DNA of 29,212 nt, taken from positions 1-29,212 of IMG/VR virus record IMGVR_UViG_3300034104_001855; one strand, written 5' to 3'. The notes under the pieces were generated by a model. That model saw nothing but the letters and a program-made list of their open reading frames with translations, was not told where the DNA came from and did not search any database. The stretch's first letter is position 1; each line of letters begins with the position of its first letter. Of the stretch, positions 2,463-20,717 are shown in pieces. A program made the translations under genes and the position numbers. This DNA comes from a virus.

Positions 2463-3587
2463 ATGGACCCGAACGTTATCAAACTTGCGATGGGTGCGGC
2501 TGGGGCTGGTGGTGCAGATAATAGACTGTATGGATGGGGACGCAATATATATGGCGAAATTGGTCTTGGGAATACGACCTCGTATTCATCTCCAAAACAA
2601 GTTGGCGCACTAACAACTTGGTCCCAAATTGCTATGGGGTCAGGTCACTCCCTCGCTATTAGCGAAAGTGGAGCTTTGTGGGCTTGGGGCAATGGAGGAT
2701 CTGGAAGGCTTGGGCTTGGTAATACAACCACTTACTCATCTCCAAAACAGGTTGGCTCTCTTACGGATTGGGCAACCCTTATGAAATGTGGTGGCACTCC
2801 AAATTTTAGTGCTGCTATTAAGACTGACGGAACCCTTTGGATGTGGGGTAACAATAGCGAAGGTCAGCTTGGTCAAGGAAATCAAACTTATCGGTCATCG
2901 CCAGTACAGGTAGGTGCATTGACCAACTGGAGCAAAGTAGCTACTGGTAGTACGGCAACAATCGCTATTAAAACAGACGGAACTATTTGGTCTTGGGGAA
3001 GAAATTCTGAAGGGCAATTAGGACTTGGAAACACTACCGCAAGATCATCTCCAGTACAGATTGGTTCTGGAACAAATTGGGCAGATGCAGCAATTAACCT
3101 GCATTCTCTTTTTGTTAAAACCGATGGAACGCTTTGGTCGTGCGGGTTAAACCGTTACTCTGCTGCTGGTGCTCTTGGGCTTGGAGACTCTGGAATTGAT
3201 AGAAGTTCGCCAACGCAAGTTGGATCTCTTACCAATTGGAACAAAGTAGCTACTGGCGACGGATCTTCGTTTTCCATCAAGACCAACGGAACACTTTGGG
3301 CTTGGGGAAACAATAGTAATGGTCAACTCGGTCTTGGAGATACTGCAAATAGATCATCTCCAGTGCAGGTAGGATCTTTGAGCAACTGGAGCAACATTGT
3401 TGCTAGTGGATCATTTGTTGTTGCTGTGAAAACTGACAAAACGCTTTGGGCTTGGGGTTCTGGAGGGAATGGAAGGCTTGGTCTTGGAAACACGACATCA
3501 TATTCATCCCCAAAACAAATTGGATCATTGACTAATTGGAATAAGATTGCAGCCGCATACTCAAGTGCTCTTGCTACAACGCAATAG
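2463..3587 (+). CDS. RCC1-like seven-repeat beta-propeller protein (374 aa)
   Basis: After a short Gly/Ala-rich start (about 18 residues) the protein consists of seven tandem repeats of about 50 residues. Each has the form (G)TLWAWG-N--GQLGLGNTT-RSSP-QVGSLTNWSKVA-G---S-AIKTD, the hallmark of RCC1-type repeats (Trp-x-Trp-Gly, GQLGLG). Seven repeats match the seven blades of a closed propeller. In cellular proteins this fold is a binding scaffold; here a surface-binding virion role is inferred from its place between fibre genes. No signal peptide is seen. The gene is visibly more A/T-rich and its repeats more alike at DNA level than neighbouring genes, suggesting recent acquisition or internal duplication. 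It starts 2 bases after the fibre stop. Confidence 0.85.
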   Translation: MDPNVIKLAMGAAGAGGADNRLYGWGRNIYGEIGLGNTTSYSSPKQVGALTTWSQIAMGSGHSLAISESGALWAWGNGGSGRLGLGNTTTYSSPKQVGSLTDWATLMKCGGTPNFSAAIKTDGTLWMWGNNSEGQLGQGNQTYRSSPVQVGALTNWSKVATGSTATIAIKTDGTIWSWGRNSEGQLGLGNTTARSSPVQIGSGTNWADAAINLHSLFVKTDGTLWSCGLNRYSAAGALGLGDSGIDRSSPTQVGSLTNWNKVATGDGSSFSIKTNGTLWAWGNNSNGQLGLGDTANRSSPVQVGSLSNWSNIVASGSFVVAVKTDKTLWAWGSGGNGRLGLGNTTSYSSPKQIGSLTNWNKIAAAYSSALATTQ

Positions 3588-3631: not shown

Positions 3632-5416
3632 GTGAGCAACAACTTGCCTAAGAAACTTCACTTCCTTTCTGGCCTTCCTCGTTCTGGCTCGACGGTGTTA
3701 GCTGCGATTCTTAACCAGAATCCGCAGACGCACGTTTCAACCACCTCTGGTCTTGGTGCTGCGCTTGATGCTCTTGCCTCAGCGTGGCACCGAGAGCCGC
3801 TTCTTGAGAAAAACGACCTAGATCGCAAGAAGCTGGCAAACGCTATGCGTGGCCTGATTAACGGCTACTATGACGAGGTTACGGACAAGCCTGTTGTCAT
3901 TGATAAGGCGCGTAATTGGCCTCTTCCTGTGGTGGTTTCTGCAATGGGCCAAGTGCTTGGGCACAAGCCGCGCATCATTGCAACGGTTCGTAGCGTTCCC
4001 GACTGCATGGCTTCGTTTGTTCGCGTAGCCAAGCCAACGGACCTCGACGATTTCGTGCATAAGTCTGGGCTTGCTGGGCATCTCAAGACCTCCTACCAAG
4101 TGTTACAGGCTGGCTACCAAGCTGACCCAGAGTGCTTCCTGTTCGTGGAATATGAAGACCTTCTGGCCGATCCGCGCACCCAGCTTAAGCGCATCCACGA
4201 CTTCCTTGGCCTCGACCCGTTTGAGTATGACCTAGAACGCATTGACGGCTCTACCGTCAAGGAGGACGACGAGGGCATTCATGGCGTAGCTGGCCTGCAC
4301 GACATCAAGCCCAAGCTAGCTCGGCAACACAACGAGTCGGCCAAGGATGTTCTCGGCTACCATTACGGTCAGTTCTGTCAGCCTGAGTTCTGGCTCCCTA
4401 AGCCGCGCACCATTGCACCACTAGACGACCTCGATGTACAGCTTGCAGCGTCAACAATTGGCAAATTTGACGATGGTAAGCGTATTGCCGATAAGCTCAA
4501 GGTGGAACGCCCCAACGACCACCGCGCAGCCTACAACCGTGGCTGGTACGAACTGCGAGGCGGCAACATCCAAGAGGGCTACAAGCTGCTCCATCGTGGG
4601 CGCAAGGTAGGCGTATTTGGCAACAGCCAGCCCAACACCCCGCAGCCTGAGTGGGATGGGCGCAGCGGCAAAACCATCCTGCTCCACCTAGAGGGCGGCT
4701 TGGGAGATCAACTGCATCAGGTGCGCTACACCCGCGAACTCCGCTCCAACGGCTTCAGTCCCATTGTTAGCTGCTCTGGGGAGCTTGTTTCGTTTATTTC
4801 GTCTACAGACCTAGCCGATGCCGTAGTGCAGCACGGGGCAGAGTACGGGGTCTATCACGACTATTGGATGGCTGGGATGTCGTCCCCGATCTACCTGAAC
4901 ATCAAGAAAAACACGATTCGCGGAGACTCCTACATCCATCGAGATTTCATTGTCCATAGCAAGAAGCTGCGGGTAGGTCTGCGCTGGTCAGGCAACAAGA
5001 CCTTTGAGGCCCAGCACCACAAGCTGTTCCCGGCCCACCTGTTCTTCGATGCCGTTAAGCGGGACGACGTAGAGTTTATCTCCCTTCAACGGGATGCCGA
5101 CCTAGAGCACAAGCCTAGCTGGGTGCAGGACGTACCCCTCCAGACGTGGCACGATACGCATAAGGCCGTAAGCTCCTGCGACCTTGTAATCAGTAGCTGT
5201 ACATCCGTAAGCCACCTGTCCGCAGCAATGGGTGTCCCCACTTGGGTTGTCATTCCAATTATGGGGTATTATCTGTATGCCGAACCCGGCCCTAAAACGC
5301 CCTACTACAACTCTATGCGGCTGTTCCGTCAGCAGAAGTATGGCGATTGGACCCACCCCTTTGAGGAAATCAAAGCCCTAAACTACGAACATGAACTACT
5401 GTCTGGTAGAGAATAA
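3632..5416 (+). CDS. Sulfotransferase-glycosyltransferase fusion (594 aa)
   Basis: Two enzyme modules in one chain. Residues about 8-255 are a PAPS-dependent sulfotransferase: SGLPRSGSTVL (13-23) is the 5'-phosphosulfate-binding loop, and IIATVRSVPDCMASF is the 3'-phosphate-binding segment. After a linker with a TPR-like helix pair (PNDHRAAYNRGWYELRGG), residues about 335-590 match the glycosyltransferase domain of bacterial TPR-glycosyltransferases (GT9/GT41-like): HLEGGLGDQLHQVRY, VGLRWSGN, FISLQRD, DLVISSCTSVSHLSAAMG and PYYNSMRLFRQ. Likely role: adding sulfate and/or sugar to a virion protein or host glycan; the substrate is unknown. The start is GTG at 3632, preceded by AGAAAGG, one of the few SD-like stretches here. 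The end overlaps the next gene by 26 bases. Confidence 0.82.
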   Translation: MSNNLPKKLHFLSGLPRSGSTVLAAILNQNPQTHVSTTSGLGAALDALASAWHREPLLEKNDLDRKKLANAMRGLINGYYDEVTDKPVVIDKARNWPLPVVVSAMGQVLGHKPRIIATVRSVPDCMASFVRVAKPTDLDDFVHKSGLAGHLKTSYQVLQAGYQADPECFLFVEYEDLLADPRTQLKRIHDFLGLDPFEYDLERIDGSTVKEDDEGIHGVAGLHDIKPKLARQHNESAKDVLGYHYGQFCQPEFWLPKPRTIAPLDDLDVQLAASTIGKFDDGKRIADKLKVERPNDHRAAYNRGWYELRGGNIQEGYKLLHRGRKVGVFGNSQPNTPQPEWDGRSGKTILLHLEGGLGDQLHQVRYTRELRSNGFSPIVSCSGELVSFISSTDLADAVVQHGAEYGVYHDYWMAGMSSPIYLNIKKNTIRGDSYIHRDFIVHSKKLRVGLRWSGNKTFEAQHHKLFPAHLFFDAVKRDDVEFISLQRDADLEHKPSWVQDVPLQTWHDTHKAVSSCDLVISSCTSVSHLSAAMGVPTWVVIPIMGYYLYAEPGPKTPYYNSMRLFRQQKYGDWTHPFEEIKALNYEHELLSGRE

Positions 5417-6433: not shown

Positions 6434-6852
6434 GCTGGTGGTCCGAGCTTCTCTTTAATGCTGGCACGGGCGGTCTCTTCGGGCTGTTCGGCAGCGTTGC
6501 TACGTCGGTGATTCGCATCTGGGAGAAGAAGCAGGACAACAAGTTTGCGCTGGATATGCTTGATAAGCAAGCTGCTAGTGCTGAGGCACTTGCGGCATGG
6601 AACGCATTCGCGGCGTCTCAGTCGGCATCTGCCGCAGACATGACGGAGAAGGTGGCACCGTGGGCAGCTAACGTCCGCGCCATCACCCGCCCCTTCCTCA
6701 CCATCGGCCTAGTGCTTGGCTCCTTCATCAGCTTCTTCCTGATCGAGGACCAATACCTCAAGGTGGAAGCCATTCAGAGCTTCATGATGTTGGCAGGCAC
6801 CTCAGTTGCGTGGTGGTTCGGTAGCCGTATGACTGCCCTCATCCGCAAATGA
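6430..6852 (+). CDS. Holin-like membrane protein, 3-TM type (140 aa)
   Basis: Three hydrophobic segments: about residues 10-28 (GTGGLFGLFGSVATSV), 88-105 (PFLTIGLVLGSFISFFLI) and 115-132 (SFMMLAGTSVAWWFGSRM). An amphipathic Ala/Gln-rich stretch lies between the first and second. The N-terminal glycine-rich helix, the charged WEKKQDNKF turn and the RAITRPFLT approach to the second helix match the 'holin of 3 TMs' family as I remember it. Role: a hole in the inner membrane at the end of infection. The start lies in the ATGA overlap with the fibre stop. It is followed by another tiny membrane protein, as in many holin pairs. Confidence 0.75.
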   Translation: MSWWSELLFNAGTGGLFGLFGSVATSVIRIWEKKQDNKFALDMLDKQAASAEALAAWNAFAASQSASAADMTEKVAPWAANVRAITRPFLTIGLVLGSFISFFLIEDQYLKVEAIQSFMMLAGTSVAWWFGSRMTALIRK

Positions 6853-7016
6853 TCTTCGATAACGACATTATCAAGGTGTTTGGCGTAACCGTAGGAGGCT
6901 CCTTGGGAACAATCACCCTCACTCAAGTGAACGAGATTGCGGCCTTCATCCTCGTTCTAGTGTCGATTGCTTACACCGTTACCAAGCTCATTAAGATCCT
7001 AAAGAGCGATGAATAA
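6849..7016 (+). CDS. Single-TM small membrane protein, candidate second holin (55 aa)
   Basis: A 55-codon gene from ATG 6849, in a 4-base ATGA overlap with the holin-like gene, to TAA 7014-7016. The product has a polar start (MIFDNDIIKVFG), a Gly-rich stretch, one clear membrane helix (about 28-44, EIAAFILVLVSIAYTV) and a basic tail (TKLIKILKSDE). Size, topology and placement next to a 3-TM holin suggest a holin, antiholin or pinholin-type partner, but no family motif is decisive. It overlaps the next gene by 8 bases. Confidence 0.65.
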   Translation: MIFDNDIIKVFGVTVGGSLGTITLTQVNEIAAFILVLVSIAYTVTKLIKILKSDE

Positions 7017-7254
7017 GAAGGCTATGAAGTGCAACTCGCCCCGGCGCGAGGTGAAGGGCGGCAAGAAGTTTGTCGTCAAAGCCTGTCAGAATGGGCAGGA
7101 GCGTATCGTCCGCTTTGGAGATGCTAACATGAGCATCAAGAAGAACCAGCCTGCCCGCAAGAAGAGCTACTGCGCTCGGTCTGGCGGCATCAAGGGCAAG
7201 ACCAACAAACTTTCCGCTAATTTCTGGTCTAGACGCGCTTGGGGATGCAAGTAA
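7009..7254 (+). CDS. Small basic conserved phage protein with a replaced C-terminal end (81 aa)
   Basis: Very Lys/Arg-rich protein with the pattern GGKKFVVKA, then RIVRFGD-NMSIKKNQPARKKSYCARSGG, and an aromatic end ANFWSRRAWGCK. I recall similar FGD-NM-I/(R)ARH/YWS patterns in small phage proteins of unknown function. The last 11 codons appear to be a substitute: a second copy of this end, NWSRRAWDC-stop, lies at 7903-7932, immediately after the GIY-YIG gene, using different codons for Ser and Arg. The original gene therefore probably ended at 7932, two bases before the ATG at 7935, and was interrupted by the mobile endonuclease. The ATG lies inside the preceding small gene. Confidence 0.75.
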   Translation: MNKKAMKCNSPRREVKGGKKFVVKACQNGQERIVRFGDANMSIKKNQPARKKSYCARSGGIKGKTNKLSANFWSRRAWGCK

Positions 7255-7904
7255 TCTACATTTACTGCGTTACGAATCTAATTAACGGAAAGCGTTATAT
7301 CGGTCAGTCGCGGTATCTGCCACAAGAAAGATTTAAGGGTCACTGTAGCGATTCTAATACAAGACCAAACAGAAGGGGATTAGCTAGGGCCATTAAGAAA
7401 TATGGGCCAGAATCATTTGTTGTAGAACAGCTGTGTTCCGTCTGCACCCAGAATGAAGCAAATAGCCTAGAGAAATACCTAATACTGAAATTTGATTGCA
7501 TTTCAAATGGCTACAATATGCTTCCCGGTGGAGCGGGAGCACGAAAGATTGGCAATCCCCATACAAAAAGCCCGCAATGGAAACAAAAGATTTCGGAAAT
7601 AAGAAAGCAAAAGTGGGCAAATCCGATTTCTAGACAAAAGATGCTTTCTGGTCGCTGGGGCAACAAATCCTCAAAGTTTAGATATTTACCTGCTAAACTT
7701 ACCCCCGAACAACGTTCAGTTAAAATTGCCGAATCCAATAAGAAAAGGTCCAAGACTTATCAGTTTCTATCTCCATCTGGGGAAACGGTAACCGTTAATC
7801 ATCTTCCGGACTTTTGCTTAGAAAACAACTTAGACTCAACCTGTATGTGCAGAGTAGCCAATGGAGCCTATGTTCACCATAAACAATGGAGAAGGGCTGC
7901 CTAA
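7245..7904 (+). CDS. GIY-YIG homing endonuclease (219 aa)
   Basis: GIY-YIG nuclease domain in residues 1-95: IYCVTNLINGKRYIGQS (5-21), a basic RF-GHC segment with catalytic-type Arg about 29, EANSLEKYLI with the metal-binding Glu at 76, and GYNMLPGG. Downstream, NPHTKSPQWKQKISEIRKQKW resembles a NUMOD3 DNA-binding motif, and the last ~40 residues (LPDFCLENNLDSTCMCRVANGAYVHHKQW) resemble a NUMOD1/HTH-like recognition unit. This is the layout of T4 Seg-type free-standing homing endonucleases. The A/T-rich composition differs from the neighbours and fits a mobile gene. I chose ATG 7245 over the TTG two codons upstream. It overlaps the recoded end of the preceding gene by 10 bases. Confidence 0.9.
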   Translation: MQVIYIYCVTNLINGKRYIGQSRYLPQERFKGHCSDSNTRPNRRGLARAIKKYGPESFVVEQLCSVCTQNEANSLEKYLILKFDCISNGYNMLPGGAGARKIGNPHTKSPQWKQKISEIRKQKWANPISRQKMLSGRWGNKSSKFRYLPAKLTPEQRSVKIAESNKKRSKTYQFLSPSGETVTVNHLPDFCLENNLDSTCMCRVANGAYVHHKQWRRAA

Positions 7905-7932
7905 TTGGAGTCGGCGGGCTTGGGACTGTTAA
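7903..7932 (+). pseudogene. Stranded original 3' end of the 7009 gene
   Basis: Read in the frame AAT TGG AGT CGG CGG GCT TGG GAC TGT TAA, this stretch encodes NWSRRAWDC-stop, nearly the same as the end of the 7009-7254 gene (NFWSRRAWGCK-stop). It begins inside the stop codon of the homing endonuclease and ends two bases before the next ATG (TAACCATG), the same spacing seen elsewhere in this small-gene cluster. It is best read as the displaced exon-like remnant left when the endonuclease gene was inserted. It has no start of its own. Confidence 0.7.
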
Positions 7933-7934
7933 CC

Positions 7935-8117
7935 ATGAAGGAAAATCGTAAAAACCGTTCAATGAAGCAGGAGTTCATGCTCTACAAGCGCATGAAGGAA
8001 GCCGAAGAGGCTTTTGAAGACGCTGAAGACATGATGGAAGATGACTACGAAGGGGAGGGCAAAATGAACTGCAAAAAGCGCAAGTGTGAAATGGGCAAGC
8101 GCAAGTCTTGTTCGTGA
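7935..8117 (+). CDS. Small charged phage protein (60 aa)
   Basis: From ATG 7935 the product is MKENRKNRSMKQEF onward. It has a helical, strongly charged middle (KRMKEAEEAFEDAEDMMEDDYEGEG) and a Lys/Cys-rich end (NCKKRKCEMGKRKSC). The frame is open further upstream to 7905, but that part coincides with the stranded end of the interrupted 7009 gene, so the ATG right after its stop is preferred. The three C-terminal cysteines could bind metal or form disulfides; this is only suggested by their spacing. No family recognised. It overlaps the next gene in GTGA. Confidence 0.65.
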   Translation: MKENRKNRSMKQEFMLYKRMKEAEEAFEDAEDMMEDDYEGEGKMNCKKRKCEMGKRKSCS

Positions 8118-8299
8118 AACGTCGTTCAACAGTAAACTCTGCTGGCGTGTACACCCAGCCGACCATGCGTAAGCGGCTCTTTGAGTCGATTAAGGCTGGC
8201 GGCAAGGGGGGCCGTCCGGGCCAATGGTCCGCGAGGAAAAGTCAAATGCTCGCTAAGAAGTACAAGGCTAAGGGCGGACGTTATAAGACTCCAAAGTGA
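8114..8299 (+). CDS. Small basic conserved phage protein, GQWSARK motif (61 aa)
   Basis: The GTG start at 8114 shares GTGA with the previous stop. The product contains MRKRLFESIKAGGKGG, then GQWSARKSQMLAKKYKAKGG, a strongly conserved signature of tiny phage proteins of unknown function (DUF6321-like, family name from memory). Net charge is very positive, suggesting nucleic-acid contact. It sits in a row of four or five equally small basic genes joined by GTGA overlaps or TAACCATG junctions, so they are translated as one unit, between lysis and tail genes. Confidence 0.75.
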   Translation: MKRRSTVNSAGVYTQPTMRKRLFESIKAGGKGGRPGQWSARKSQMLAKKYKAKGGRYKTPK

Positions 8300-8705: not shown

Positions 8706-10889
8706 ATGCCTCGTTACAGCAACTTTGGTCCCCGTGACAATCCGCTCACGGAGGATGCGGACATTGGCTTTTCTCGGTTTGGCAATCGGCTACGTCCCGA
8801 CCAACTGAAGGCTGGCGAGCTTGCTATGTCCGTCAACGGACGTATGAACGTCGATGGGACGTGGCAAGTGCGTCCCGGCGTAGATACGTTTGGCCCTACG
8901 ATTGGGTCCGTGAACGAGGCTCTGGCCCTGCCGTTCTACCTGTGGCCCCAAGTGACGATTAGCTCGGCCACCCGATCTGGTACGACGGTTACGATTACAA
9001 CGTCTACCAACCACGGCTTCTCGTCATCCTATGTTGTTGCAATTGTGGATGTTGGTCCCGGAACCGTAGACCCCAACGGCAACCAGACCGTCACCGTTAC
9101 GGGCAACACCACATTCACCTACGAGATTGCTGGAGCTACGGGTAGCGAGACCTACTCGGTTAGCGGCACCTCCAAGGCTGGTGGTGCTATCGTTGGGACC
9201 ACCGCCCTCAACGGCGCATTTGGCTCCTGCTTGTTCTCTGACCCTGCGAGCAGCAATCAGGAGTACATCATTCTCGCCCTGTACGAGAACGCTATCGCCA
9301 TCAACATGACGACGAAGGCGACCACTACGATTGCGTACCCCACGGGGATTACGCTCACGTCGTCGGTGAATATGCTGCAAGCCTTCAACAAGGTGTTCAT
9401 CTTCCGCGACGGAGCTACTGCTCTGCAATGGAACGGCAGCTTTTCTGGCTCCCCGGCCTTCACGAAGGTGGCTAATGGAAACTACGCGGCGAGCACCTAC
9501 TTGGATGCATCAAACAACACGGTGATTACGGATGGTATTGTCACCGTTACAGAAGCGTCCCACGGCTTAAATGTTGGGGACATTATATATGTCGTAAACA
9601 ACGGAACAACGGAGCTTTCAGAAAGTAATCCTTACGTTGTGGCTACGGTGCCGGGAACTGGTAGCTTTACGTTCTACGCAGAGATTTCCGACGCTACGGC
9701 CACAACCGTGGTGTATGCCAAGAAGCAGCCTTCCCAGCTTGGCTTCACGCATATGCCCGCGCCCCCGTGGGGTGTGTATCACCAGCGTCGTCTGATTGTC
9801 CCCTACTACTACACGACCTCTGGCAGCAGCGGTAGCGAGACGGTTGCGAGCCGTAACGTGCGGGATGAGATTCTCCTGTCCGACATCTTTGACTCGGACA
9901 CCTACGACCGCATCCTCAACCAGCTAAAGGTAACTGCGGGCATCGCTGACTATCTTCAGTATGTTCACCCGTTTACTGAGGATAACGCCGTCATCTTCAA
10001 CCGCAACTCCATCCATCTAATGATGGGCCTGAGCGGCTCGCTGAACGACATCAGCCTCAAGGAGATCACTCGCGAGGCTGGACTAGTAGCGCAAAAGAGT
10101 GTCGTTACCATCGGCAACAAGATATTTTTCCTATCGGACAACGGCATCTACGCTACGCAGTTTGAAGACTTGTACAATCTGCGCGGGGCAGGACTGCCTT
10201 TGTCTGACCCCATCAATCCTCTCATCAAGCGGATCAACCCAGACTACGCGCACAACGCTGTAGCCGTCTACCATGACAATCGCTATTGGATTGCAGTACC
10301 GATTGATGGCAGCACCCGCAACAATGCCATACTGATCTACAACCTTCTGAACGAGGGCTGGGAGAGCATGGACCTGATTGACCAGAGCGGCTGGAACATC
10401 TCCAACCTTATCGTCAGCGGAGCAGGCGGGGTGAACAAGCTATACGCTGTTAACAGCTTCGGCGGTGTACACGTCCTTGACGAACGCCCTGATGCCTTCG
10501 ACTACATCTATACCCGACCGGGGGCGGCCTCTACGCCCTACCCCATTGAGGCAGAGGTAACTACCCGCCAGTATACGTTTGGCGACGTTGGCCGTAAGAG
10601 CTTCAATGCTTACGAGGTTCACGTCGAGTCCTCCGATCAGGAGCCTAGCGATGCCGAGATTACGATGATTTCGGAGAACATTGATAAGGAGGCAGAGATG
10701 TACACTCTAGCTCAGAGCTTGGGTGAAGACCTTCCTATTGGGGAGGACAGCTCCGTCCGTGGCCGTATTGGTAACATCCGCGCCTACGGTATGCAGATGC
10801 GGTTCGTACCGACCAAGGGCCGACCCAAGCTGCGAATGGTGAAACTTGAGGCTTCTCAGGCGTTCCGTTCTGTGACAGAAGCTAGTTAA
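8706..10889 (+). CDS. Tail nozzle / head-tail stabilisation-like protein (727 aa)
   Basis: Large beta-rich protein. The N-terminus (NPLTEDADIGFSRFGNRLRPDQLKAGELAMSVNGRMNVDGTWQVRPG) has the layout I associate with podoviral tail-nozzle or stabilisation proteins (T7 gp12 / P22 gp10 type): a list-like 'N-R---G--R-G' opening and then propeller-like strands. Two beta insertions rich in Thr, Val and Gly occur near residues 83-145 and 270-330. The C-terminus (RQYTFGD-GRKSFN, then MQMRFVPTKGRPKLR) is typical of such proteins. Its place just before the ejection-type proteins supports the call. A generic tail-tip or fibre role is possible. No clear SD; the ATG follows TAAACTACCGTC. Confidence 0.65.
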   Translation: MPRYSNFGPRDNPLTEDADIGFSRFGNRLRPDQLKAGELAMSVNGRMNVDGTWQVRPGVDTFGPTIGSVNEALALPFYLWPQVTISSATRSGTTVTITTSTNHGFSSSYVVAIVDVGPGTVDPNGNQTVTVTGNTTFTYEIAGATGSETYSVSGTSKAGGAIVGTTALNGAFGSCLFSDPASSNQEYIILALYENAIAINMTTKATTTIAYPTGITLTSSVNMLQAFNKVFIFRDGATALQWNGSFSGSPAFTKVANGNYAASTYLDASNNTVITDGIVTVTEASHGLNVGDIIYVVNNGTTELSESNPYVVATVPGTGSFTFYAEISDATATTVVYAKKQPSQLGFTHMPAPPWGVYHQRRLIVPYYYTTSGSSGSETVASRNVRDEILLSDIFDSDTYDRILNQLKVTAGIADYLQYVHPFTEDNAVIFNRNSIHLMMGLSGSLNDISLKEITREAGLVAQKSVVTIGNKIFFLSDNGIYATQFEDLYNLRGAGLPLSDPINPLIKRINPDYAHNAVAVYHDNRYWIAVPIDGSTRNNAILIYNLLNEGWESMDLIDQSGWNISNLIVSGAGGVNKLYAVNSFGGVHVLDERPDAFDYIYTRPGAASTPYPIEAEVTTRQYTFGDVGRKSFNAYEVHVESSDQEPSDAEITMISENIDKEAEMYTLAQSLGEDLPIGEDSSVRGRIGNIRAYGMQMRFVPTKGRPKLRMVKLEASQAFRSVTEAS

Positions 10890-11221
10890 TGAAGCCTATT
10901 TATGAGGCCAAGAAAATGTTCGTGGAGCGCGGCCTCAACTTTGAGGAACAGCTTACTTGGTATCTAACCAACGGAGTGGTGCTTAGTTTTGAGGACAGGT
11001 TCCTCATGGCTAAGCCCATTGAGATAGCGAAGGGGGATGATTGTTGGCATCCCGAAAACCCCGATTGTTGGTATGTCCATTGCGCGGTAGGCAAGAACTG
11101 CCTCAAGTGGTTCTTGAACCAAGCTCCCTACCCGTTGCCCTACATTGGGTGGCGGCGCAACAAGGACGGCACTAATCGGTTTCGATGGTACAATGCGTCT
11201 ACATTCGAGCGACTTGCGTAA
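10889..11221 (+). CDS. Hypothetical Cys/Trp-containing phage protein (110 aa)
   Basis: Starts in TAATG with the previous stop and ends TAA directly before the next ATG, so it is tightly coupled. The N-terminal half is helical (YEAKKMFVERGLNFEEQLTWYL). The middle has C52, C60, C65 and C71 with several Trp (DDCWHPENPDCWYVHCAVGKNCLKWF). The end is PYPLPYIGWRR--DGTNRFRWY. The pattern 'W-VH-AVG---L--FL-Q-PYPLP-I-W' recurs in my memory of small phage proteins beside tail/ejection genes, but no function is established. Four cysteines could bind a metal. Not an enzyme I can name. Confidence 0.75.
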   Translation: MKPIYEAKKMFVERGLNFEEQLTWYLTNGVVLSFEDRFLMAKPIEIAKGDDCWHPENPDCWYVHCAVGKNCLKWFLNQAPYPLPYIGWRRNKDGTNRFRWYNASTFERLA

Positions 11222-14005
11222 ATGAAAACATCCGTATCTGCCCCGCCTCCCGCCCCGGCTCCCGTTGATCCCGGCAAAGCATCGTTGGATTACATCAACG
11301 CAATGGCCGATCCGGCGTTGCAGGAGAAGCTGCTGGGCGCAGAGCAGCAGTTCCGTCCGCAGTATACGAAGCTCAACCTTCAAGAGCAGGAGCAATATCT
11401 TCGTGGTGTAGACGGACAGGCTGGTGTCATTGACATTCTCAATCAGGTTACGCCACAGCTTGTTCAGACTCAGGAAACGGCTGATCGTCTCCAGCGCGAT
11501 GCAGACATCCGCGCCCTTCAGAGCCAGAGCGGAGGTTACCTCTCTGCGCTTATGCAGGCCAACCCCCAGATGTTTGCTCAGCTTGAGGCTGCGCGGGGCA
11601 TGGGTGGCAAGACTGACTTTTACGGTGGGCTGCAAAACGCAATTACCGGAGCACAGCGATTTGGCGATGTCGGCGTAGCGCAAGCTACGGCCAACACAAT
11701 TGACCAAGGTCCGCAAGTAGACCTCCAAGGCTATCAGGCTACAACTGGTACGGCTGCGCAACAGGCGGCTGCTCAGCCCGTTTCCCTGCAAGGCTTCCAA
11801 GCGGCTCAGGGTCAGGCTACGATGGCTGGTGCCGCTCCGCAGGCTCAGGCTGCTCTCTTGGGTGGTGCGCCCACCATGCAGGCTGTATCTGCTGGGGCTG
11901 TGCCGATGGTGCAGCAGCAGGGCTTCCAAGCTGAACGTGCTGCCGCGCCCACCCTTGGTGCTGCTCCGACTGTTCAACAGCAGGGCTATCAGGCCGCACA
12001 GATGCAGGCGGCTCTTCTTGGTGCCGCGCCTCAAGTTGCTGCTCAGGGCTATCAAGCTCAGGGATATAACGCCGCTCAGGCTGCTGCTGTTGCCGACATC
12101 GCTGCGCAACAGGTTCAGCAGGGTCAGCTTGGTCAGGCGTTGTACCAGCAGGCTTTGCAGGCTGCGCCCACGTCTGCCTCTGAGACCTTCCGCCAGCGTG
12201 CGGCTCAGATGGCTACGTCCACGGGCCAACTTAGCCCAGAAGAGCTTCGCAATGCCCAACAGGCAACCCGTGAGGCGTTTGCTGCCCGTGGCTTGGAGAT
12301 GAGCAATCAGGCTATTGCCGCTGAAGCCATGTCCCGTGCGGGTGCCGTGCGTGAGCGTCAGGCTCAAGACATTCAGCAGGCGTCTGCTCTCAATCAGGCT
12401 TACCTTGCTGATCTCGGTGCTTCCCGTGGGTTTGCTACGGGGGTTTACGGTCAGGACTTGGGTCTCCAGCAGGCCAATCAGGCCGCGATGTTGCAGGCCG
12501 CGCAGTCCAATCAGGGTGTCGCTGCTCAGATGTCGTTGGCTAATCAGGCCGCCATGAATCAGGCTAGCCAGTTTGGTGCGTCAGCCGCTAATCAGGCGGG
12601 ACAGTTTGGAGCCACTGCTCAAAACGCTGCCGCGATGGCTAATGCTCAGCAAGCCGCTCAGTTTGCTATGGCGAATCAGCAGGCCCAGATGTCTGCCGCT
12701 TCGGCCAATATGGCTGCGCTCAACCAAGCTGGTCAATTCGGTGCTACGGCTCAGAACGCCGCTGCAATGGCGAACGCTGACCGCGCAGCGCAGTTTGCTT
12801 TGGCTAATCAGGGCATCCTTTCCCAAACTGGTTTGGCTAACATGGCTGCTGGCAATCAGGCAGCGCAGTTTGGTGCTTCCGCGCAGAACGCTGCGGCTAT
12901 GGCTAACGCCGAACAGGCTGCTCGTTTCGCCCTAGCCAATCAGCAGGCCGGGATGCAGGCGGGGCAGTTTAACGCCCAGCAGGCTGCGCAGTTTGCTCTC
13001 GCTAACCAGCAAGCCTCAATGCAGGCCAACCTCGCCAATCAGGCGTTGCTTGGTCAGTATGGACTTTCCAATCAGTCGGCGGCTAACCAGTTTGGTTTGG
13101 CGAATATGCAAGCCGCTCAGGAGGCTGCTCAGTTTGGTGCGGGTGCTGCGAATCAGGCTACGCTGGCTAACCAGCAGGCGTTTCTCCAGCAGGCTGCTGC
13201 CAACCAGCAGGCTCAGCAGCAGATGGCTCTGGCTAACATCGAGGCCCAGAATGCTGCGGCGCAATTTGGTGCTGGTGCCGCCAATCAGGGAAGACTGTCC
13301 AATCAGGACGTGGCTATGCGTGCTGCTCTGGCTAACCAAGCCGCGCAGAATCAAGTGGGCCTGTTTAACGCTGAGCAGCTTACCAATATGGGGCTTGCAA
13401 ATCGAGCCTTCCAAGCCTCCCAACAGCAGCAGAATATTGCTAACCTTGGTATGCTTGGTCAGGCGCAGCAGGGAGAAATGGCTGCCAATCGTGCCTATCA
13501 GAGCCAGTTGGTTGGCCTTTACGGCGCAGCCTTTGACCCCATGAGCGTTGTCCTTGGTCGTCCGTCCGGTGCGCTGGGCGTGGGCCAGAATCAGCAGGGC
13601 TTGGCTACGGGCATGATGCAGAGCATGGGCGGTCAGGTGTTTGACCCGAACGCTGGTGTTAACCTCGCCCTCCAACAGAACGCCAACCTCGGCAACTATC
13701 AGGCGGCTACCTACGGTGCTCGCGCTGCGGCTCAGGGTGCGATTACTGCCGCTAAATATCAAGCTGGAGGAAACATCCTTAGCTCAATTATTGGATGCTG
13801 GGTAGCCCGCGAAGTGTATGGCGAAACCAATCCGCGCTGGATGATGTTCCGTGAATGGCTCGTAATGAAGTCGCCGTCTTGGTTCAAGAAGCTCTACTTC
13901 AAGCATGGCGAGGGCTTTGCTGCGTGGCTCAAGAACAAGCCGCGCATTAAGAACCTAATCCGCAAGTGGATGGACTCCCGTATTAACAACTATCTCTTCT
14001 CCTAA
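11222..14005 (+). CDS. Ala/Gln-rich repetitive internal virion (ejection-type) protein (927 aa)
   Basis: Starts with a Pro/Ala leader (APPPAPAPVDP) and a helical region. Two repeat arrays follow: residues about 169-285 with QGYQA/QGFQA and AALLGAAP units, and about 415-720 with roughly 30-residue units of the type NQAAQFGASAQNAAAMANA--AAQFALANQQA. Residues about 859-920 are a distinct conserved tail, GCWVAREVYGETNPRWMMFREWL, then SWFKKLY and KPRIKNLIRKWMDSRI, which I recognise from the ends of large phage structural proteins. The size, helix content, and position after the nozzle and before two other long helical proteins suggest a DNA-ejection protein. The direct DNA repeats may be prone to slippage. 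Confidence 0.7.
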   Translation: MKTSVSAPPPAPAPVDPGKASLDYINAMADPALQEKLLGAEQQFRPQYTKLNLQEQEQYLRGVDGQAGVIDILNQVTPQLVQTQETADRLQRDADIRALQSQSGGYLSALMQANPQMFAQLEAARGMGGKTDFYGGLQNAITGAQRFGDVGVAQATANTIDQGPQVDLQGYQATTGTAAQQAAAQPVSLQGFQAAQGQATMAGAAPQAQAALLGGAPTMQAVSAGAVPMVQQQGFQAERAAAPTLGAAPTVQQQGYQAAQMQAALLGAAPQVAAQGYQAQGYNAAQAAAVADIAAQQVQQGQLGQALYQQALQAAPTSASETFRQRAAQMATSTGQLSPEELRNAQQATREAFAARGLEMSNQAIAAEAMSRAGAVRERQAQDIQQASALNQAYLADLGASRGFATGVYGQDLGLQQANQAAMLQAAQSNQGVAAQMSLANQAAMNQASQFGASAANQAGQFGATAQNAAAMANAQQAAQFAMANQQAQMSAASANMAALNQAGQFGATAQNAAAMANADRAAQFALANQGILSQTGLANMAAGNQAAQFGASAQNAAAMANAEQAARFALANQQAGMQAGQFNAQQAAQFALANQQASMQANLANQALLGQYGLSNQSAANQFGLANMQAAQEAAQFGAGAANQATLANQQAFLQQAAANQQAQQQMALANIEAQNAAAQFGAGAANQGRLSNQDVAMRAALANQAAQNQVGLFNAEQLTNMGLANRAFQASQQQQNIANLGMLGQAQQGEMAANRAYQSQLVGLYGAAFDPMSVVLGRPSGALGVGQNQQGLATGMMQSMGGQVFDPNAGVNLALQQNANLGNYQAATYGARAAAQGAITAAKYQAGGNILSSIIGCWVAREVYGETNPRWMMFREWLVMKSPSWFKKLYFKHGEGFAAWLKNKPRIKNLIRKWMDSRINNYLFS

Positions 14006-18927: not shown

Positions 18928-19129
18928 GGACACTCAGGATAGCACGGTCGATTGCTGCGCGTAGTGAAGGTCCATCGGTAATCATCAAGTGCTCTTCGCT
19001 CTCATCCATGTAGACAATCTTGAACGTGGGATCGCCGTCACCGTTAATGGTGAAGGCAATCTCGATGACGTATTGCTCAATCCAGTTTACTCTGCTTTCG
19101 TCCTCTGGCTGGTCTAGTTTTGGGATCAT
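18911..19129 (-). CDS. Hypothetical acidic protein (72 aa)
   Basis: Unrecognised protein with a beta-rich middle (WIEQYVIEIAFTINGDGDPTFKIVYMDESEEHLMI) and a helical end (SLRAAIDRAILSVHAQ). Acidic overall. It overlaps the HNH gene upstream by 53 bases at its 5' end, so the true start could be somewhat later, although no other ATG is present in the first 45 codons. It overlaps the phosphoesterase gene by 17 or 23 bases. No nuclease or binding motif is visible. Confidence 0.6.
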   Translation of the reverse strand: MIPKLDQPEDESRVNWIEQYVIEIAFTINGDGDPTFKIVYMDESEEHLMITDGPSLRAAIDRAILSVHAQQS

Positions 19130-19475
19130 GGGTTATGTTTTTATGGCAGGGCTTACATATCACCTGCAAATCTTTTGCCTCGCAGAACAAGCGTTCCACA
19201 AAGCCGGGGAGATCGGAGTAGCTCTTGAGTGAGCCGCACTCCACGACGTGATGCACTTGGGTGTTCTTCTGGATGAACCACCCGCCGCACACGCCGCATT
19301 GATATTCGTTTTTCTGTAGTTTGTTTGGTCCCCTGTAGGTACGTTTAGCCGCATTGCGGCATTGGTAGTTTGGCGGATAGCGAGTGAAGGCACGCCGCAG
19401 GGCAGAACGGATGAAGCCCCAATAACGAGCACTTGTCCACGTTCCGCCACAATGTGTCTTCTCTGGCTTAGGCAT
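19077..19475 (-). CDS. HNH nuclease-like zinc protein (132 aa)
   Basis: A basic N-terminal half is followed by a Cys/His core: C60-x2-C63 (YQCGVCGGWF), H75-H76 (TQVHHVVECG), then C107-x2-C110-H111 (DLQVICKPCHKNITH). CxxC, HH and CxxCH in this spacing is the usual outline of zinc-containing HNH endonucleases of phages. Possible roles are packaging-linked nicking, genome processing or mobility. Its place in the replication block, away from a terminase, leaves this open. The start codon overlaps the stop of the 25-codon reading frame upstream by one base. Confidence 0.78.
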   Translation of the reverse strand: MPKPEKTHCGGTWTSARYWGFIRSALRRAFTRYPPNYQCRNAAKRTYRGPNKLQKNEYQCGVCGGWFIQKNTQVHHVVECGSLKSYSDLPGFVERLFCEAKDLQVICKPCHKNITHDPKTRPARGRKQSKLD

Positions 19476-20210: not shown

Positions 20211-20412
20211 CGTCGTAGGGCAGCGTAGTGGTCATCACCGTGTACGCCTCCACGCCGTTCTTCACGCTCTCGGTGAGAGCCTTGTGCCGCTCAAGGGCGG
20301 CGAAGAAATCCTTGGGGTTCCCCGTTTCAAGGGAAGCAAGCACGTCGTGCTGGCCTGCTTCAAGGATGCGGATGTAGTTAGCTTCAATACTGTCGAGGTC
20401 CATGTTTGTCAT
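20194..20412 (-). CDS. Hypothetical helical protein (72 aa)
   Basis: From ATG 20412, in ATGA overlap with the upstream HNH-like gene, the product begins MTNMDLDSIEANYIRILEAGQ and contains a helical region (DFFAALERHKALTESVKNGVEAYTVM) ending in an acidic-polar YDDDRNN. A longer in-frame start at 20445 would overlap the upstream gene by 37 bases and is less likely. No family recognised. It belongs to the translationally coupled series of the leftward unit. Confidence 0.6.
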   Translation of the reverse strand: MTNMDLDSIEANYIRILEAGQHDVLASLETGNPKDFFAALERHKALTESVKNGVEAYTVMTTTLPYDDDRNN

Positions 20413-20717
20413 CTTGGTAGCATATATCCCCGCTCGTATGCCCATTGGGGATGGTAGTGAATTTTGTTATGTGACTCGCGGCATACAGCGAGCCAATGAG
20501 TTGTGTCGTTCAGTCTGCCGTGCCAACGTCCCCGGCGGTGGTGGATGTCTTCCGAGGCTGGGGCGTTGAGCGGTTGGCCTTCGTACTTGAGGCCGTTCTC
20601 TTGGAGGTACACCTCGCAATACGGATGAGCTTCAAGGTAGGCTTTACGGAGCTTCGCATATTCTCGTAGCTCCTTGGACCTCTTGCTGCTCACCCGCTTG
20701 AGAGGCGTCCGCTTCAC
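20409..20717 (-). CDS. HNH-like phage protein, SEDIHHRRGR motif (102 aa)
   Basis: Basic start (KRTPLKRVSSKRSKELREYAKLRKAYL), then HPYCEV (C34), SEDIHHRRGRWHGRLND (H59, H60) and HWLAVCRESHNKIHYHPQWA (C79, H83, H87), ending YERGYMLPR. This DIHHRRGR...VCR--H--IH--P-WA arrangement is a familiar phage HNH-fold protein. The first Cys pair is incomplete, so zinc binding may use C34 and C79 with His. It may nick or process DNA, or be an inactive binding version. It is coupled by ATGA to genes on both sides. Confidence 0.72.
   Translation of the reverse strand: MKRTPLKRVSSKRSKELREYAKLRKAYLEAHPYCEVYLQENGLKYEGQPLNAPASEDIHHRRGRWHGRLNDTTHWLAVCRESHNKIHYHPQWAYERGYMLPR

Follow-up and report, generated by a model that had tools for sequence, protein, structure and literature searches.

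The window analysed here is the whole of a 29,212-nucleotide stretch of DNA (IMG/VR virus record IMGVR_UViG_3300034104_001855), an aquatic phage contig which encodes a DnaB helicase and a phage tail assembly chaperone and has relatives in IMG/VR. Other genes in the window include one for a phage protein of RCC1-type beta-propeller repeats (2463–3587; Pfam RCC1, seven stretches) and one for a large protein with an N-terminal Sulfotransfer_3 domain (residues 11–195) and a long C-terminal part without Pfam match (3632–5416), the latter gene adjoining that of the tail assembly chaperone. On the minus strand, two small ORFs (19077–19475 and 20409–20717) show HNH-like His/Cys patterns and have no Pfam match.

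The locus of interest lies on the plus strand and begins with a small gene (7009–7254) whose native part (7009–7220) resembles phrog_7595 (E = 1e-11) and has a left flank identical to that of two related contigs, L005 and L006. This gene ends in ANFWSRRAWGCK-stop, with the stop at 7254. Its divergent 3′ end (7219–7254), hereafter the replacement end, encodes NFWSRRAWGCK-stop and includes 30 nt, AATTTCTGGTCTAGACGCGCTTGGGGATGC, which duplicate the gene end in frame (FWSRRAWGCK); the first base that is unlike the related phages is 7221. A second gene end is found further downstream (7904–7932), where the sequence read from 7903 gives NWSRRAWDC-stop, and the ATG of the next gene (7935–8117) follows two bases after this stop. 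The replacement end and this stranded original end are spelled with different codons (Ser TCT versus AGT, Arg AGA CGC versus CGG CGG, Cys TGC versus TGT), and the Asn codon is AAT in the replacement end versus AAC in the relatives. At the protein level, the replacement end differs from the native end by two residue changes (F for Y and G for D) and an extra Lys. The peptide match between the gene end and the downstream sequence has a score of 48, compared with 38 for the best of 60 shuffles. The duplication is thus beyond chance, for which the rejoining of the flanks described below is the more decisive evidence.

Between the two ends is a gene for a GIY-YIG homing endonuclease of 219 amino acids (7245–7904), whose ATG sits inside the replacement end (GG-ATG-CAAGTAA). 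The protein matched Pfam GIY-YIG (PF01541) with 35.1 bits, above the curated cut-off of 22.6, and the homing endonuclease family phrog_314 (8.8e-35). The AlphaFold model is confident for approximately residues 1–100, and Foldseek matched it to the catalytic domain of I-TevI (1mk0; E = 1.4e-5, probability 1.00, TM 0.83 on the target). The C-terminal half, which is poorly modelled, is presumably DNA-binding. In an alignment with distant relatives (A1), all members have E76 and N91 and most have R29, and catalytic roles of the conserved Arg, Glu, and Asn in GIY-YIG enzymes have been described (PMC2988022). The G + C content of the endonuclease gene is 42% versus 54% for the window. Searching solved structures with the endonuclease sequence gave no match, searching genome contigs with the protein gave no relatives, a DNA pattern for its conserved AIKKYGPE motif retrieved no contigs beyond those already found, and the cassette DNA had no match in 50,697 phage records. 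Immediately after the endonuclease stop (TAA-TTG) comes a TTG codon in the frame of the next gene (7905–7935); re-initiation there would give the next protein ten more residues (MESAGLGLLT).

Empty sites in related phages

In a scan of IMG/VR, 80 contigs were found to encode closely related copies of the small gene; approximately 34 more loci came from a second scan. In all relatives except the endonuclease-bearing contigs, the gene end is followed without interruption by the next gene or a short spacer. The endonuclease-free relatives end in ...CTTTCCGCTAA-CT-ATTGGAGTCGGCGGGCTTGGGACTGTTAACCATG, so that the small gene closes with ...NYWSRRAWDC and the next gene comes directly after it. CTTTCCGCTAACTATTGGAGTCGGCGGGCTTGGGACTGTTAACCATGAAGG was read at the empty sites of L004, L005, L006, L018, and others, L005 and L006 being the closest to the window, and the junction with the next gene is TAACCATG in most relatives of the L002–L040 group.

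Compared with L005 and L006, the window is identical for 60–62 nt leftwards of 7220 and for 42 nt rightwards from 7904, the exact rightward match to empty-site relatives in general being 36–45 nt. Comparison with L005, L006, L018, L011, L019, L077, and L130 delimits an inserted cassette of 683 bp (7221–7903), comprising the replacement end and the endonuclease, which stands in place of CT in the empty site CTAA-CT-ATTGG. The replaced CT lies in coding sequence, within the small gene's Asn and Tyr codons. When 7009–7220, CT, and 7904–7932 were joined by script, the exact NYWSRRAWDC gene end of the endonuclease-free relatives was obtained. No end is more common among the relatives than the one given by the joined flanks, ...NKLSANYWSRRAWDC-stop, which stands in 54 of 115 gene copies with their end read. 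On the basis of these comparisons, the locus almost certainly represents a 683-bp insertion that carries a replacement tail.

The displaced piece is conserved. A WSR(R/K)AW.C motif stands right before the next gene or short spacer in all distinct other copies examined but one (WSRRQWAC), and a C-terminal (Y/F)W...W motif is kept in Pelagibacter phages HTVC106P and HTVC008M, in Roseobacter phages CRP-3, CRP-902, and SIO1, and in Synechococcus phage S-EIVl. An insertion without a replacement end would cost the small protein its (Y/F)W...W motif.

Much of this had been anticipated by the initial annotation. The two gene ends and the codon differences which it listed are correct as read directly from the window, and the empty relatives that it predicted, with ...WSRRAWDC directly before the 7935 gene, are present in L004, L005, L006, L018, and others. 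Its use of the stranded end as a marker of the insertion point holds, as this point is now pinned to within two bases. Its proposal that the insertion brought a replacement end and left the small gene whole agrees with the in-frame tail in the window and with the exact rejoining of the flanks. Two patterns contrary to this reading, an AWGCK end instead of any NWSRRAWDC sequence in the endonuclease-free relatives or both copies without an endonuclease between them, were sought among the relatives, and neither was found.

The cassette and its tail in other phages

The cassette was found in only two independent backgrounds. L099 belongs to the same phage population as the window (100% identity over 13.8 kb, same junctions). 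On the other hand, L098 represents a different phage background, with an average identity of 94.4% to the window over 5.2 kb, yet the two show zero differences at 7187–7939. This block of 753 nt, the longest identical run in the comparison, covers the last small-gene bases, the cassette, and the stranded end; the first difference is at 7940, and dozens follow within the next 150 nt. L098 reaches only approximately 32 bases upstream of the cassette. A second identical block of 592 nt (10812–11403) has no endonuclease inside and appears to reflect recent recombination. Since the window and L098 share such other long identical blocks, the cassette may have moved by ordinary phage recombination, and general recombination could account for this single case of exchange. 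Homing-type mobility at the small-gene site is likely.

A 27-mer from the replacement end occurs in only four IMG/VR contigs, two with the cassette and two without it. The latter (L096/L002 and L097/L003) are mutually identical over 6.5 kb. In L003 (6210–6238, and also in L002, L096, and L097), the small gene carries the replacement end without the endonuclease, in a genome that is otherwise of the empty type; the gene ends in ...AATTTCTGGTCTAGACGCGCTTGGGGATGC-TAACC. When L003 was compared with its near relatives L026, L027, and L037, which have the ordinary end (L016 was left out because of a bad alignment), 10 of 32 positions differed, against a background of 4–5% (P about 1e-6). Immediately to the right of the altered end, the next 300 nt of L003 share 99.7% identity with empty-type relatives. 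Because this island lies within sequence that is 95–99.7% identical to ordinary empty alleles, the altered end appears to have been imported into L003 too, as a piece of 29–30 nt. Repair copying may have quit the cassette template at a shared TGC, or a deletion between two imperfect repeats, GCTTGGGGATGC and GCTTGGGACTGC, may have removed the cassette. The product of both routes would be the same, a functional gene which should resist cutting, and the L002/L003 allele is thus a natural candidate for a cleavage-resistant allele.

The initial annotation regarded the replacement end as recoded. Its divergent spelling is confirmed, whereas recoding in place is less likely than a foreign origin. 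Excepting the L002/L003 phage, the 30-nt replacement end is 7–14 nt from every natural allele, and natural alleles differ from one another by 1–14 nt (median 7). The nearest natural allele, that of L059, also ends in C-K-TAA (...TGCAAATAAT versus ...TGCAAGTAAT in the replacement). Considering this distance and the Lys-ended L059 allele, the tail was most likely captured from a divergent relative rather than built by stepwise recoding. A degenerate pattern search for a native donor with an (F/Y)WSRRAWGCK end retrieved only cassette-bearing contigs. A distant small-gene relative in L041 (3783–4028) has a native AWGCK end, identical in residues to the replacement end but spelled with different codons.

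Proposed mechanism and alternatives

We consider it likely that the locus is a mobile cassette with two components: a divergent version, still functional, of the final ~10 codons of its target gene, and a GIY-YIG homing endonuclease whose start lies within that version. When phages with and without the cassette infect the same cell, the predicted cleavage of the empty allele would fall at or close to GCTAAC|TATTGG, and the cut allele would receive the cassette through repair templated by a cassette-bearing genome. The small gene, read from its left flank, would then continue into the replacement end, so that the protein retains its conserved (F/Y)WS...W tail, and the old end, displaced downstream of the endonuclease, would still provide unaltered sequence right before the next gene. 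The divergent spelling would probably have been acquired from a more distant relative.

The position of the predicted site is constrained by the stranded end, which keeps ATTGGAGTCGGCGGGCTTGGGACTGTTAACC whole in the cassette-bearing genome. The 18-mer which the initial annotation had proposed as substrate, TGGAGTCGGCGGGCTTGG, is intact at 7906–7923 in the endonuclease-bearing genome itself and cannot alone be the cleavage site. Since the right half of the target is retained there, the predicted site must extend leftwards of the junction into GCTAAC, and hence span GCTAAC|TATTGG, provided that the enzyme leaves the genome encoding it uncut. Under a junction-spanning site, the replacement would have to be spelled differently, as the native spelling would rebuild the site beside the left flank. 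By this logic, it is somewhat probable that the altered spelling protects against self-cleavage. Free-standing GIY-YIG enzymes of T4 such as those encoded by seg genes, which lie between genes, usually cut far from their own gene, at hundreds to thousands of base pairs (PMC2988022). This argues against homing at the junction; the site may lie elsewhere, and the tail may then serve only to repair the host gene.

Several other explanations of the arrangement were considered. The endonuclease and a neighbour's gene end could have arrived together from another lineage by homologous recombination, with the tail as a hitch-hiker lacking any protective role. These phages are visibly mosaic, the distance of the tail from natural alleles falls within their own range, and a similar C-K-TAA tail exists in L059. 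However, a two-sided homologous crossover would swap out the old end rather than strand it, and an insertion ending midway through the target motif on its right side is needed to account for both the two-base junction and the stranded end; passive mosaicism is therefore improbable, and a foreign origin of the tail is also compatible with a mobile cassette. We give slightly less weight still to the possibility that the L002/L003 phage was the original tail donor, the end being native there and the endonuclease having landed behind it. This would explain the identical 30 nt without an endonuclease, but the altered end is an island in that phage too, with flanks of the ordinary empty type, and partial copying from a cassette donor or cassette loss between imperfect repeats is more likely.

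Intron-encoded members are common among GIY-YIG enzymes, and a relative lies between the two halves of the terminase gene of Enterococcus phage BC611, which raises the question of whether splicing of a group I intron or intein that includes the insert restores the old end. A group I intron around the endonuclease ORF was rejected, with no Rfam match at 6800–8200 even at E ≤ 1. Moreover, the upstream gene is complete, its stop precedes the body of the endonuclease, no reading frame runs through, and the gene is restored without need for splicing, so that this explanation is very unlikely. Metagenomic contigs can also be chimeric; an assembly artefact is even harder to credit, given that the same junctions recur in L099 and, in a different background, in L098.

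The evidence leaves evenly balanced whether the element acts as a natural home-and-rescue drive in phages, in which the altered tail would both keep the target gene working and evade the element's own enzyme, and partial homing or enzyme loss between the imperfect tail copies would give rise to resistant enzyme-free alleles such as that of L002/L003.

Comparison with known systems

The closest parallel is provided by the mobile ORFs (mORFs) with carboxy-terminal replacement of fungal mitochondria, in which a foreign C-terminus and an endonuclease are found in atp6 of Allomyces macrogynus and in atp6, atp9, cox2, and nad3 of Glomus sp. (PMC3630166). The native C-terminus of these genes is stranded downstream and matches close relatives, and the enzyme of the Glomus atp9 mORF is of the GIY-YIG family (PMC3630166). 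In both mORFs and the phage cassette, an endonuclease plus a divergent 3′ end is inserted, the hybrid gene is in frame, and the native end is stranded. The phage locus shows the features by which mORFs are recognized, namely an ORF in a coding end for which empty alleles exist, an in-phase divergent C-terminus, and a stranded native C-terminus. Unlike mORFs, the cassette resides in a phage genome rather than a mitochondrion, its tail has only ~10 codons, the endonuclease start overlaps the replacement end, and an enzyme-free tail allele was found. By analogy, the cassette would work like an mORF, in a phage and with a GIY-YIG enzyme outside any intron.

The window enzyme also resembles the T4 seg endonucleases (SegA–SegG), which are GIY-YIG, phage-borne, and located outside introns (PMC2988022), and several seg genes, like the window endonuclease, are placed head-to-tail behind an upstream gene. 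In contrast to the intergenic seg genes, the window endonuclease interrupts a coding end at its presumed site, replacing CT inside small-gene codons, and rebuilds the gene end. With the intron-encoded I-TevI of T4 it shares the catalytic fold (1mk0) and the conserved Arg, Glu, and Asn, but has no intron around it. HomeR, an engineered CRISPR drive in Drosophila, is aimed at the 3′ end of a coding sequence, so as to limit re-coding, and supplies a re-coded rescue (PMC7968924). Both HomeR and the phage cassette target a 3′ coding end and bring an altered rescue end, the HomeR drive allele being functional and uncuttable; HomeR is man-made, and the likeness is in logic only.

Among 25 other related phage GIY-YIG genes (11 IMG/VR loci and 14 annotated phages), no convincing case of a duplicated tail was detected. 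In several cases, a phage GIY-YIG gene and a convergent gene (e.g., ligase or clamp loader) overlap by 4–18 nt at the 3′ end of the latter, as at 1492–2070 in L114, 1507–2085 in L110, and 1501–2073 in L117, which suggests a preference for gene ends. No phage precedent for an endonuclease with a replacement tail was found in the literature, with most subscription journals outside the scope of the search. The arrangement is known from fungal mitochondria and engineered drives and is apparently unreported in phages.

Homing genes normally spare their host by hiding in introns, in inteins, or between genes. Carrying a replacement for the displaced gene piece, as known in fungal mitochondria, is a fourth way. 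An element of this kind can occupy conserved coding sequence without splicing, and the host can survive its decay or loss. The allele states found here are empty, full (in two backgrounds), and tail-only. If the proposed mechanism is true, the cassette would be a natural counterpart of engineered home-and-rescue drives and would show how resistant alleles arise against one.
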